Source of the DNA: Turicibacter faecis
GTDB lineage: Bacteria; Bacillota_I; Bacilli_A; MOL361; Turicibacteraceae
Direction of reading: 5' to 3'
Assembly (NCBI RefSeq): GCF_037076425.1
Contig: NZ_AP028127.1
Location: 898,001-962,000, forward strand
DNA length: 64,000 nucleotides
Below are positions 50,600 through 55,595 of this stretch, piece after piece. Each line of letters starts with the position of its first letter. Within the stretch, counting starts at the first letter, position 1. The notes below the pieces were generated by a model, which saw only the letters and a list, made by a program, of their open reading frames with translations, ran no database searches and was not told the origin of the DNA. Both the position numbers and the translations under genes were made by a program.

Positions 50600-51028
50600 A
50601 TGGATAAATCGTAGTCATAAAATTTACTTGATAAACTTATTTACGTTCTTTTTTTAAAGATAATATTTAGATTGATGATCTTAAAAAAATATAAACCGTT
50701 AATTTTGTAAATATTTCCTACCAAACAAATGAGTGTTCCTTTCGAGGAGGTTTTATATATTGAGACGTTGACCGGTTCTCATAAACTACATTTAGTGAGT
50801 AAAAAAATGAATACACAGTTTTAGGGGAGTTTGCGAGATGTTGAGCAACTTCATGAACGGTTGTTTCAATGCCATAAATCTTATGTCATTAACCTTCAAA
50901 ATGTTGTAAAGGTAGATAAAAAAGAAAAAAAGGTCTATTTTGAGAATAAAGAATCTTGTCTCATTTCAAGACGATTTGTCAAAGAATTGGAAGGTTTAAT
51001 AACAAAAGAGGCAGAAAAATCCCTTTAA
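50600..51028 (+). pseudogene. decayed LytTR-type regulator
   Basis: From ATG 50600, with a strong SD (AGAGGGGG), one frame runs to TAA 51026-51028, interrupted by several stops. The last part is clearly a LytTR DNA-binding domain: SVPFEEVLYIETLTGSHKL, then after a TAG at 50822-50824 LRDVEQLHERLFQCHKSYV, INLQNVVKV and ISRRFVKELEGL. The stops fall near MDKS, NLLDKL.. and before IFPTKQ. No receiver domain is present. This looks like a small LytTR regulator (stand-alone or AgrA-like) that lost function, leaving the radical SAM gene behind it without its likely control. The stretch 50223-50599 holds no gene that I can support. Confidence 0.75.
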
Positions 51029-51044
51029 AAAAGGGATTTTTTTT
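51016..51044 (+). terminator. terminator after LytTR remnant
   Basis: AAAATCCCTTT and AAAGGGATTTT form an 11-bp stem with a T8 tract, overlapping the last codons of the remnant. Confidence 0.88.
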
Positions 51045-51117
51045 GACTAAATGAACCGTTCAGGCATTTTCAATGACCGAATAGGGAATTGCTGTTCTTT
51101 TTTGCAGACTGGTTTGT

Positions 51118-51170
51118 TATGATGAGGGGGCAACAGATAGGGAAAGGTCTATCCCAATTAGGTAGACCTT
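51118..51170 (+). promoter_or_regulatory. -10 element and leader hairpin before radical SAM gene
   Basis: TATGAT (51118-51123) may be a -10, without a convincing -35. AAGGTCTA (51144-51151) and TAGACCTT (51163-51170) form a stem in the leader, 33 bases before the ATG. A T-rich stretch follows it, so a weak attenuator is possible. Confidence 0.4.
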
Positions 51171-51202
51171 ATTCGTTTATTATTTAATAAGGAGAGGATA
51201 AT

Positions 51203-52540
51203 ATGAATAATCTTTTATTGGCCAAAACAGAGAAAATACTAGGTAATAGCGGGGGGAAAATATTTAATAATTTATATAAATTATTAAACTCTTATGAGGA
51301 ACCCCTCGAAAAAGTTACTTTTGCTTATATTGAAAGATATAGGAAACCATTATTGGTCAGTCCAAAAATTAGATTTAATTATACATTGTCACAAATTAAC
51401 GAAATTTTCAAAGGATATTCTGAATATTCACAAGATAATATTAGAAATTTGTATTTACTGGCGTTATCAATATGTGGTATTAAGGTTGATGATGAGTTAG
51501 CTTTATCATTTATTAATGCGCCTAAGGAGGAAAGTTATAGATATTTAAGGGTGATTGCAACAGTGGATAATAAACCAATAACCATGCGGGTTGTTCCAAA
51601 CAGTTGGGGAGGAAAGGACTCAATATTAACTACAAATTTCCATCTAAAGGGAACAGATATTTATCTAGAAGATAAAAAAATATGTACCATTACTTCATGG
51701 TGTAATTTATGTTCTATAAATAATATTGCGTACGTATCCAAAAATTTATATGGGGAAAATATCCTATGTGTAAACCCCCTACAATTTTGTAATCAAGAAT
51801 GTAAATTTTGCCTAAGAACTCAGGAAATGTACTCGAAAAATAGAACCGATGAACTTATAAATTTAAGGGCGGATCAGCTATGTCGATATATTATAAGTGA
51901 ACTACCAGAGGTAAACTATCAAACATTAAATGAATTTTATATCTCTACTGGGAGATTTAGAGATTCTAAACATTTACTGAATTATTTAGAAAGTTTATAT
52001 ATTAATTTAAAAGAAATATCGTGTAATCAGTTTGACCCAGTGAGTAAGGAACACCAATGGTTTAAGGTCTCAACCCATTTATTAGATACAGAAGAGGCAA
52101 TGATACAAGCACAGAAATGCGGAGTGAAAAAATATTTATATCCTATAGAAATTGTTTGTGATAAAAAAAGAAAGAAGTATATGGCAAGTCAGGGGGTGCC
52201 GAATAATAAAGGAGATGTCATGTTTTCAGAAATCATCACAATATTAGATACTGCATCTAAGGTATTTGGTAAAGAAAACATTGAGCCGGTTTTGATTATC
52301 GGTATTGATACTTATGAAGATACTATGAGTGCACTCCTTCAATTAAAGAATAAGGGGTATAAAACAATTTCATATAATGTATATAGAGCTTATTATGAAG
52401 AACAATTGAATCTATATAATATGAGTTTAGAAGAAATAGTTGATGTTACTGAATTTATAAAACGGAATTTTAATCAGGGTTATAAACAAGTCGTAGACAT
52501 GAATAATAAATGTGTCCAAAAGTCGTATATCTCTATTTAG
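51203..52540 (+). CDS. radical SAM enzyme of unrecognised family
   Basis: Cytoplasmic 445-residue protein. The radical SAM cluster motif is FCNQECKFC (C196, C200, C203, a CX3CX2C), late in the chain, so it has an unusual N-terminal region of about 190 residues before the barrel. That region carries another Cys pair, SWCNLC (167, 170). The barrel continues with FYISTGRFRD, a possible SAM-binding strand, and IEIVC. I see no SPASM-type Cys tail. Codon use differs from its neighbours: ATA, AGA and TTA are common. This suggests recent gain. The SD AGGAGAGG sets ATG 51203. It precedes an MFS gene by 57 bases. No precursor peptide is evident nearby. The reaction is unknown. Confidence 0.85.
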   Translation: MNNLLLAKTEKILGNSGGKIFNNLYKLLNSYEEPLEKVTFAYIERYRKPLLVSPKIRFNYTLSQINEIFKGYSEYSQDNIRNLYLLALSICGIKVDDELALSFINAPKEESYRYLRVIATVDNKPITMRVVPNSWGGKDSILTTNFHLKGTDIYLEDKKICTITSWCNLCSINNIAYVSKNLYGENILCVNPLQFCNQECKFCLRTQEMYSKNRTDELINLRADQLCRYIISELPEVNYQTLNEFYISTGRFRDSKHLLNYLESLYINLKEISCNQFDPVSKEHQWFKVSTHLLDTEEAMIQAQKCGVKKYLYPIEIVCDKKRKKYMASQGVPNNKGDVMFSEIITILDTASKVFGKENIEPVLIIGIDTYEDTMSALLQLKNKGYKTISYNVYRAYYEEQLNLYNMSLEEIVDVTEFIKRNFNQGYKQVVDMNNKCVQKSYISI

Positions 52541-52596
52541 AAGATTAATATAATTTTGAATCGTTATTCTTTTAATGGAGGATAGGAGCTAAAAAT

Positions 52597-53760
52597 ATGA
52601 AGCGATTTTATCTGTATCGAATTTTTACGTTAAATCATTTTATGACGGCCATTTATGTCATTTATTTACGATCACTGGGATGCTCGTTTGTGAGCATTGC
52701 GGCGTTTCATACAGCCAAAGATTTAACCGTGATGGGATTAGAGATTCCATTGAGTTACCTTTCTGAAAAAATAGGATATAAATTTGTTTTGGCGCTTTCG
52801 GGTATTTTTATGACGCTTTCGATGTTACTCATGATGGTGACGACAAATCGGGCGCTATTATTGCTAAGTTTTATTTGTTGGGGCATAGCCGTATCATGCG
52901 ATTCCGGAATTAGTGATGCATATTTATACGAGCAAGTAGGCGAACAACGCTATCCTATCGTTCAATCAAATACTATCATGTGGCGGCAATTGGTCGGATC
53001 AGGCTTTAAATTAATTGGGTCAATGGTTTATTCTGTATTTCAGTTACTCCCATTTCTACTCACAATAGTCAATAGTTTAATTTCGACGGGTACCGCATTA
53101 AGTTTCAAACCTATAAAGGTTAAACAAACGCCACGAAAGGTGTCTTTTAAACAGTTTAAGGGGACGGTATTATCTCCCGCCTATCTTGCTGTTGTTTTTC
53201 ATAACGTGTGTTTAATTACTTTTTTAAGTTTAACGTTTACGTATGAATCGGTGTTACTTGTGGACCAAGGTTTAGATGCTAACTGGTTAGGTGTTGTGAC
53301 GTGTTTGAAGTTAATTGTAAGCTCTTTTGGCGTACATCTCGTTAAAAAGTTTGTACATGTCAAAAATAGTTCTAATTTTTATCTGTGGTTATACGTTATT
53401 TCAACAGTTGCTATCTTAGGATTGGGAAATCAAGCGTCTATTTTAGTCACTATCTTATCGATCTTAGTGATTTCAATCGTAAATGGGGTCATGTTTCCCT
53501 ACCGAACTATTTTATTAAATAAAGTGATTCAGGATAATCGGGCAACGTTGTTGTCTATTCAATCTCAAGGCCAATTTTTGATGCGAGCTGTTTTATCATT
53601 AGTAATGAGTTGGATAGCAGATACTGTTTCTCCCTCATTTGCGATGGTGGGCTTAGCTTTATTAACGTTATCCTCCATTTTAATCATGCGAGGATGCTTT
53701 TATCCAATCATGAGAACCGTCGATGAATGGAACGAGAACAAAGTAAAATCAGTCGCTTAA
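52597..53760 (+). CDS. MFS transporter
   Basis: Secondary transporter of 387 residues with about 12 helices. The MFS loop after helix 2 is recognisable (LSYLSEKIGYKFVLALSG), and the pattern is like drug- or metabolite-efflux MFS members. Its codon use is ordinary for the window, unlike the radical SAM gene 57 bases upstream. The SD GGAGG plus GGAGC is strong. If the two are co-transcribed, the transporter could export the radical SAM product; this is inference. A sharp two-way terminator follows. Confidence 0.88.
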   Translation: MKRFYLYRIFTLNHFMTAIYVIYLRSLGCSFVSIAAFHTAKDLTVMGLEIPLSYLSEKIGYKFVLALSGIFMTLSMLLMMVTTNRALLLLSFICWGIAVSCDSGISDAYLYEQVGEQRYPIVQSNTIMWRQLVGSGFKLIGSMVYSVFQLLPFLLTIVNSLISTGTALSFKPIKVKQTPRKVSFKQFKGTVLSPAYLAVVFHNVCLITFLSLTFTYESVLLVDQGLDANWLGVVTCLKLIVSSFGVHLVKKFVHVKNSSNFYLWLYVISTVAILGLGNQASILVTILSILVISIVNGVMFPYRTILLNKVIQDNRATLLSIQSQGQFLMRAVLSLVMSWIADTVSPSFAMVGLALLTLSSILIMRGCFYPIMRTVDEWNENKVKSVA

Positions 53761-53770
53761 CGGTTAAAAA

Positions 53771-53817
53771 TTCATGATAAAAGGGATCACCTGTTTGGGG
53801 ATCCCTTTTATCATGAA
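53771..53817. terminator. bidirectional terminator
   Basis: TTCATGATAAAAGGGATC pairs perfectly with GATCCCTTTTATCATGAA around an 11-base loop. It serves the MFS gene and the convergent phosphodiesterase gene, whose last codons overlap it. Confidence 0.9.
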
Positions 53818-55595
53818 GGTCTGAAAAAAAGTTGATTGATGAACATAATGTAGTGGTCATTCAGATGCGCCATTTGTTTTTTTAAGAGGGTTGGGTTGTC
53901 GGTGACAATCCCATCCACTTGCATGGCAATCATTGTTTGCATCGTGGCCTCTTTATTGACCGTCCAAGCATAGATTTGTTTTCCTGAATGATGGACTTGA
54001 CTAATGAGGGCATAGGAGATAAAGGAAGCCTCAATCGAGTAGTAGTCAACGTCTTTTAAATTTTGATAATCCCCATATGCAAGCGCTGTAATATAGACGG
54101 TTTGAATGTCGGGGTTAATCATTTTGGCCACTTGTAAGACACGATAATCCATCGAACCAATGAGACATTCATCTTCCATGTTGTGTGCCTCAATTAATTC
54201 GATGACTTTTTTTGTTATCTCAGAGGTGTCATCGCTCACTTTAATTTCAATCATGAGTGTCAGTTTTCCTTTTGCCTTTTTTAAGGCTTCCTCTAGCGTG
54301 GGGATCGGTTCCCCGAAAAAGGCGGCATCAAATCGTCCTCCTACTTCTAATTGCCTGATTTTTTGATAAGTTGTCTCGGTTACTTTTTGATCATAACCAG
54401 ATGTTCGTTTCAGATTGGAGTCGTGCATCAAAATCACTTCTTTGTCTTTGGTCATCTGAACATCAATTTCTGCCATATCAGCACCATGTTGAATGGAATA
54501 ATCAAGAGCAGCTAATGTATTTTCAGGAACATAGGTTGCTGAACCGCGATGAGCAATAATTTGAATATCATCTGAAAAGTTTCTCCGACCAATCGAGAGG
54601 AAATTAGGACTAATGAGCCCACTACCAATGAGGAAGAAAATCCCGATCACGACTCCTTTGAGAATCGGATGTTTTGTCATTTTTGACGCGCAGCCTTTTA
54701 TCGGAGGAAGATACGGGGCTGGGGTAATGAGGTAAAGAGTATGGATAAAGGCGCACATCAAAATTAAAAAGAAGGACGGTGCAATAATCGTTAATATACT
54801 TTTAATGGTTAAGGCTATATTTATAAAGATTGTCGATGCCTCTGTTGGATGAATGATTTTAATGGCAAGTGCACTTATTAGAATTAGTCCGCCATAAAGC
54901 CCCATAAAGGCTATTCCGATAAGCAGAAGATAGTTCAGGGTGTAGAAACGAAGAATTACTGTTTTCGATGAGCGTTTAACACTTTCCTTCGCTGCCCGAA
55001 TGAAGGGCAACTTTTGATAAACCACCCCTTGGAGGGTAAAGCAAAAACGAATGTTAAGTAAGGCTAGAGCAGAGATGAATAGAAAATAAACAGGATGAAA
55101 AGGCGCCCGTTGGTACAATAAATCGAATAAAAATTCGGTAATTGAAAAATCTTTTAGGAAATAGTATTTAAATAAAAAGGAAGAGATAGGGATGATACTC
55201 GTTAGAAAAAGGAGGAGTAAAAGGTTTCGGGGGGCTAGAATACTTAACGCCCCTTTTAGACTTCGCGTAATGGTTTGAAAAAGCGAAAGTTTTTGATGAT
55301 GAGTAGCTGCTTGTAAAAGGAGGAGAATAGCGTAAACTTCTAAAAATAACACATATCCAAGACAAATAATCATAAAAAAGCCTAAGATTAAAACACTTGG
55401 CGAAAGGCAAAAATGAATTGCTTGCTTGGCGCTCAGATAAGTCATATTCAACTTTTGCATAATCGTTGTTAAAATTGAAAAAAAAGATGGCACGATGACT
55501 GCCAAAAGAAGCAATTTATGTATAAGCTCAAAAAGAGCAAGTGTTAGGGCATTATATTTGAGATAAGTGAACGTTTCTTTAATCAAATGGGCCAT
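53811..55595 (-). CDS. glycerophosphodiester phosphodiesterase with membrane domain
   Basis: A 594-residue protein. The first 340 residues have about eight membrane helices (the membrane domain common to Firmicute GDPDs), then the GDPD domain outside or at the membrane. Its key residues are IIAHRGSATYVPENTLAAL (HR and E), the ADMAEIDVQMTKD metal Glu/Asp, and LMHDSNLKRT (catalytic His). Later IEIKV and the terminal DGIVTDNP are also typical. It hydrolyses glycerophosphodiesters from lipid or teichoic-acid turnover. I use the ATG at 55595, since the SD GGAGG lies inside the five-codon longer form. Confidence 0.93.
   Translation of the reverse strand: MAHLIKETFTYLKYNALTLALFELIHKLLLLAVIVPSFFSILTTIMQKLNMTYLSAKQAIHFCLSPSVLILGFFMIICLGYVLFLEVYAILLLLQAATHHQKLSLFQTITRSLKGALSILAPRNLLLLLFLTSIIPISSFLFKYYFLKDFSITEFLFDLLYQRAPFHPVYFLFISALALLNIRFCFTLQGVVYQKLPFIRAAKESVKRSSKTVILRFYTLNYLLLIGIAFMGLYGGLILISALAIKIIHPTEASTIFINIALTIKSILTIIAPSFFLILMCAFIHTLYLITPAPYLPPIKGCASKMTKHPILKGVVIGIFFLIGSGLISPNFLSIGRRNFSDDIQIIAHRGSATYVPENTLAALDYSIQHGADMAEIDVQMTKDKEVILMHDSNLKRTSGYDQKVTETTYQKIRQLEVGGRFDAAFFGEPIPTLEEALKKAKGKLTLMIEIKVSDDTSEITKKVIELIEAHNMEDECLIGSMDYRVLQVAKMINPDIQTVYITALAYGDYQNLKDVDYYSIEASFISYALISQVHHSGKQIYAWTVNKEATMQTMIAMQVDGIVTDNPTLLKKQMAHLNDHYIMFINQLFFRPS

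Follow-up and report, generated by a model that had tools for sequence, protein, structure and literature searches.

A radical SAM (rSAM) enzyme gene and a major facilitator superfamily (MFS) transporter gene in the chromosome of Turicibacter faecis appear to form a two-gene operon under AgrA-type control. In our favored reading, in which we place about even confidence, this operon would act on a small molecule rather than on a ribosomal peptide (RiPP), and its laterally acquired enzyme gene would belong to an unstudied rSAM subfamily. The window analyzed here is a stretch of 64,000 nucleotides (contig NZ_AP028127.1, positions 898,001 to 962,000), and the features that carry this reading are collected in Table 1. 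A preliminary description had seen in these genes the remains or core of a peptide or small-molecule biosynthesis system; with both genes intact, a working core fits better than remains, and a peptide product is the less likely of the two.

Table 1 Features of the rSAM-MFS region (window coordinates).
Feature	Position	Strand	Basis
AgrA-like response regulator relic, LytTR domain only (~residues 151-249)	50730..51028	+	Pfam E=3.6e-13; DNA identity
Terminator-like hairpin behind relic, common to intact regulator locus	51015..51048	+	12-bp perfect inverted repeat
Tandem LytTR/AgrA-type box ACCGTTCAG-N12-ACCGAATAG	51055..51084	+	Motif scan; genome copies
Putative promoter TTCTTT-17-TATGAT	51095..51123	+	Sequence inspection; comparable elements at this position in L033 and L171
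Leader hairpin, 10-bp perfect stem, promoter-RBS interval of rSAM gene	51144..51170	+	Listed as terminator-like
rSAM enzyme gene, 445 aa	51203..52540	+	ORF; family via profile search
Direct repeat ATGAATAAT, copy 1, at rSAM start codon; G002 deletion endpoint	51203..51211	+	G002 comparison
Cluster-binding motif CNQECKFC (CX3CX2C)	51788..51811	+	Sequence; alignment with relatives
Direct repeat ATGAATAAT, copy 2, near rSAM 3' end	52499..52507	+	G002 comparison
MFS transporter gene, 387 aa	52597..53760	+	Pfam MFS_1 39.6 bits, cut-off 33.4
Palindrome in gap between convergent MFS and GDPD-like genes	53768..53824		Sequence; sub-threshold Rfam match flags hairpin

Results

LytTR relic and its intact counterpart

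The broken LytTR regulator previously noticed upstream of the enzyme gene is real, but its homology is longer than described and marks it as a dead copy of an intact regulator. Positions 50730-51144 share 85% DNA identity over 417 bp with another locus of the same chromosome (L033), where the match covers the 3' portion of a complete LytTR regulator gene and about 116 bp behind it, and the promoter region behind the regulator is included. The intact AgrA-like regulator lies at ~2.3296 Mb of the window's own genome (G000), after an AgrC-like kinase; the AgrA- and AgrC-like matches are strong (E=9e-51 and 2e-53) but below the curated equivalog cut-offs. In the relic, the receiver domain is missing and an in-frame TAG stands at 50822-50824. 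Judged from this homology, the relic is a truncated, stop-interrupted partial copy of the regulator elsewhere in the genome, and the fragment was rejected as a regulator itself because it is truncated and carries the TAG inside.

At the intact locus (L033 6611-9697; G000 ~2.3286-2.3317 Mb), the AgrC/AgrA-like pair has no agrBD next to it. Behind the pair come an exact LytTR box, two hydrophobic ORFs of 52 and 54 aa and, placed between these ORFs, a gene for a 161-aa secreted protein to which Pfam assigns no family. By its content, the locus resembles one for a secreted peptide or bacteriocin under quorum control. The sister species G002 (L171) keeps the box and the secreted-protein gene but has neither the kinase nor the regulator. 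The genome has two AgrB genes, both away from the AgrC/AgrA-like pair. The intergenic region that separates an agrB gene from a divergently oriented lipoprotein-like gene also contains a degenerate box, ACCGTTTAT-N12-ACCGTTTAG (L304, G000:C1 ~2156085-2156114).

LytTR box and promoter

The box lies 118 bp before the rSAM gene and has the layout of an Agr-type LytTR regulon, namely tandem 9-bp repeats with a 12-bp spacer upstream of a promoter. When up to 3 mismatches were allowed, the window gave no other match (0.00 expected), and two exact copies were counted over 99% of the genome (~20 kb reads N), with 0 in Markov controls. The second exact copy adjoins the intact AgrC/AgrA-like pair. Approximately 42 bp around the box are identical at the two loci, whereas the flanking relic coding sequence is ~83% identical (~17% diverged). 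At both regulator copies, a TTCTT-type -35 and TATGAT come after the box, and a consensus promoter scan did not pick out TTCTTT-17-TATGAT. The leader hairpin of the rSAM gene is without a proper T run, and the partner locus has a leader hairpin too.

The simplest reading of this arrangement is that the relic copy brought its promoter along and that the rSAM operon would answer in trans to the intact regulator. Alternatively, a once-intact local AgrCA-like pair may since have been lost, in which case binding of a regulator to the box would likewise be presumed. The earlier proposal of a signaled biosynthetic core largely holds, with the roles altered, since the LytTR relic drops out as the regulator and the enzyme and transporter genes are both intact.

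Radical SAM enzyme

The rSAM reading frame is intact with all 445 codons open, and the superfamily motif CX3CX2C is present as C196/C200/C203. Pfam Radical_SAM (PF04055) covers residues 190-325 only and is sub-threshold (E=0.0064; 17.1 bits vs a gathering score of 29.5), and the assignment to the superfamily is based on this motif together with the profile search described below. Residues 1-190 gave no recognized domain in Pfam, NCBIfam or PDB, as had been reported before. The sole NCBIfam match of the enzyme, comF, is spurious, and neither NF045502 nor TIGR04043 was matched; PDB, PADLOC and PHROGs searches gave no match for the enzyme. It falls into none of the known housekeeping rSAM families. 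The second Cys pair (SWCNLC) that had drawn attention is indeed present at residues 167/170 as CX2C, but the alignment shows it conserved in none of the relatives found. A single-sequence AlphaFold model was of low confidence (pLDDT 40) and too poor for a fold search; alternating helices and strands reached moderate confidence in only part of residues 295-420.

The composition of the gene also departs from its neighbors, in line with the horizontal gain suggested earlier. Its GC content is 29.5%, AGR codons encode 13 of the 16 Arg and ATA encodes 15 of the 40 Ile, which correspond to the 1st, 99.6th and 98th percentiles, respectively, of the 1348 genes of at least 200 aa in the genome. Its codon use thus belongs to the extreme 0.5-2% of those genes, and the rSAM gene was probably laterally acquired.

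Transporter and end of the operon

The MFS gene starts 56 bp downstream of the rSAM gene. Its ORF, also seen in the preliminary description, was confirmed, and its MFS_1 match is above the gathering score. Since its codon use is ordinary and host-like, the two genes possibly did not arrive together. The palindrome behind the MFS gene is probably a two-way terminator.

Sister species and distribution

In G002, the MFS gene directly neighbors the ABC gene within a single contig, and the rSAM gene is absent. At the junction, the rSAM RBS and first nine bases are joined to the last ~33 bases of the gene at the 9-bp direct repeat ATGAATAAT; the intergenic region is also without relic and box. Because G002 retains the start and end of the gene, the rSAM gene most likely predates the divergence of G000 and G002 and was deleted in G002. 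The MFS gene is intact there (97% identical), and its dN/dS of ~0.15 between G000 and G002 indicates that it is under purifying selection between the sister species.

The rSAM gene is sporadic, occurring in 1 of 5 genus genomes and 2 of 392 Bacillota genomes, and searches of the three remaining genus genomes matched neither it nor the MFS gene. A scan of 84,980 species using a few short exact peptide patterns of the rSAM enzyme found no relative, although with such limited patterns absence is unproven; the same scan with a degenerate pseudo-alignment (artificial query variants, wider patterns) found none either. Using tblastn, the rSAM enzyme gave nothing at E<0.01 on plasmids and phages, and no match came from scans of viral contigs, in which the rSAM enzyme, the pseudo-alignment, the MFS protein and the G012 rSAM (see below) served as queries. 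An IstB match (tblastn, E<10) was dismissed as chance, and weak matches in G140 and G158 as noise, the G140 one lying inside a GTPase-like ORF (L002).

Distant relatives

Among the 392 Bacillota genomes, the only MFS relative at E<1e-20 was found in G012, a member of another Bacilli family (29% identity, E=4e-45). Immediately upstream of it, with overlapping ends, lies an rSAM gene; the chromosomal place differs from that of the window, and both G012 genes carry stop codons. The rSAM-MFS pairing therefore recurs in a distant genome. This second pair links the enzyme to the transporter, and the exact copy of the LytTR box at the AgrC/AgrA-like pair links it to an Agr/LytTR-type circuit, both in support of the preliminary description. 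The G012 rSAM (L191 4412-5164) has a CX15CX2C motif, in which 15 residues separate the first two motif Cys.

Searches with the G012 rSAM led to rSAM proteins encoded on plasmids of Streptomyces, Nocardia and Mycobacterium, where MR/MLE enolase, HAD hydrolase and phosphoketolase genes are their neighbors. A recurring cluster of rSAM, enolase-superfamily, HAD and phosphoketolase genes was seen on these plasmids (L193, L192, L194, L196, L199). No paper on this actinobacterial cluster or on MSMEG_0568 was found in the literature. When a profile was built from the G012 rSAM and five actinobacterial plasmid rSAMs, leaving the window enzyme out, it ranked the window enzyme first (E=8.7e-9) against a best control of 0.028 among ~3400 proteins, which included unrelated viral rSAMs from a bare motif scan and the host proteome. 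In addition, tblastn at E<10 had revealed a Mesorhizobium protein (P0001) distantly related to the window enzyme, and with this protein in the profile the window enzyme reached E=2.1e-14 vs 0.01 for the best control. P0001 matches NF045502 (variant_rSAM, 2.9e-16) and TIGR04043 (MSMEG_0568 family rSAM, 9e-9), both below cut-offs, and in this it differs from the window enzyme. The Mesorhizobium gene (L034 5608-6723) lies downstream of queC-queD-queE on a symbiont plasmid, an adjacency that suggests a deazaguanine-derived product for that enzyme.

Against the actinobacterial proteins alone, the window enzyme gave weak signals (hhalign E=0.005-0.009; hmmsearch 0.04), so the proposed tie to them depends on the G012 bridge and gene order. 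The window enzyme shares the rSAM core with the plasmid proteins (WP_327378865.1, Streptomyces; WP_011212325.1, Nocardia farcinica pNF1; WP_069954157.1, Mycobacterium intracellulare) as well as a GID/GLD motif, and a Cys-x3-Arg (C319/R323 in the window) is common to the window, G012 and actinobacterial enzymes. In the preceding segment, SPFxLDE...VATVT of the plasmid proteins aligns with TNFHLKG...ICTIT of the window, which suggests that residues ~80-165 match, at least partly, the N-terminal segment of the relatives and that what sets the window enzyme apart is limited to roughly its first 80 residues. In contrast, the aligned actinobacterial cluster proteins have CX2CX2C (CVGCTFC) instead of CX3CX2C, are without the extra ~80 N-terminal residues, and stand in multi-gene clusters. 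Like the G012 enzyme, the window enzyme has an MFS partner, and the enolase/HAD/phosphoketolase set was not present among the ORFs flanking it. The MFS protein of the M. intracellulare cluster was rejected as an orthologue of the window MFS (BLASTP E=0.03). From these comparisons, we conclude that the window enzyme is a member of an rSAM subfamily that is sporadic, still unstudied and represented in both Bacillota and Actinomycetota.

Discussion

Based on these features, we propose that the rSAM and MFS genes would be transcribed as a two-gene operon from the LytTR-box promoter, and that the intact AgrC/AgrA-like two-component system would switch it in trans, presumably through regulator binding and in a quorum-dependent manner, keeping the operon on while the pair is active. 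The enzyme would carry a 4Fe-4S cluster on Cys196/200/203, cleave S-adenosylmethionine, and modify a small molecule. The transporter would most likely move the product outward, with import of the substrate as the other possible direction. At bacteriocin promoters regulated by PlnC/PlnD, the sites consist of two 9-bp repeats with a 12-bp spacer directly before the -35/-10 (PMC2714321), and AgrA binds paired direct repeats (PMC4227749). The window box resembles these Agr/Pln LytTR promoters (S. aureus AgrA, L. plantarum PlnC/PlnD) in its 9-bp direct repeats, their 12-bp separation and their position before -35/-10. Unlike them, it drives an rSAM-MFS operon that has neither a signal peptide gene nor a processing gene next to it, and the local regulator is dead.

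Because Agr/LytTR circuits often control peptides, the rSAM might modify a ribosomal peptide encoded elsewhere, for example by a small hydrophobic ORF of the partner locus, with the MFS protein as its exporter. The partner locus does have the same box, the 161-aa secreted protein and hydrophobic ORFs of 52-54 aa. However, no SPASM, RRE or other RiPP-associated domain appeared in the Pfam and NCBIfam results, no plausible precursor ORF with an RBS was seen between the box, the rSAM gene and the MFS gene, G002 retains the secreted-protein locus yet lost the rSAM gene, and the actinobacterial relatives adjoin sugar-phosphate-type enzymes; we regard this explanation as improbable. A 22-codon ORF (51119-51187) was rejected as a precursor since it has no RBS, overlaps the -10 and loses its frame at the partner locus. 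A small molecule is likelier than a peptide because precursor, SPASM and RRE are missing and the actinobacterial relatives stand in small-molecule-type clusters.

It is likewise unlikely that the genes form a nutrient or cofactor salvage pair, with the MFS protein taking up a precursor for conversion by the rSAM, similar to biotin- or thiamine-type salvage. The C-terminal half of the enzyme resembles rSAMs of the BioB/HydE/MSMEG_0568 kind (IGIDTYEDT and IEIVCDKKRKKY, read from the P0001 alignment and the P0001 NCBIfam matches), but its sporadic distribution and Agr-type box are unlike those of a housekeeping salvage gene. Slightly less unlikely is a decaying, selfish or neutral import without present function, the box and relic being by-products of duplication. 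Loss of the enzyme in G002, the decaying G012 pair and the foreign codon use of the rSAM gene all agree with such an import; on the other hand, the 445 codons are still open although the gene predates the G000/G002 split, and the box is exactly preserved next to a diverged relic. Returning to the small-molecule operon, we can extend it tentatively to a new class of minimal quorum-controlled rSAM/exporter cassette for a secreted small-molecule signal or antibiotic, with an enzyme from an rSAM subfamily in which the cluster motif differs by subgroup (CX3CX2C, CX2CX2C and CX15CX2C).

In conclusion, an uncharacterized rSAM subfamily reaching from Bacillota to Actinomycetota is now defined by sequence and gene order, and its two-gene version is simple enough to be used in product discovery. 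The exact copy of the LytTR box provides a testable handle on the timing of the operon. In addition, the arrangement suggests that a dead regulator copy may leave behind a working promoter, by which an imported gene is placed under quorum-type control.
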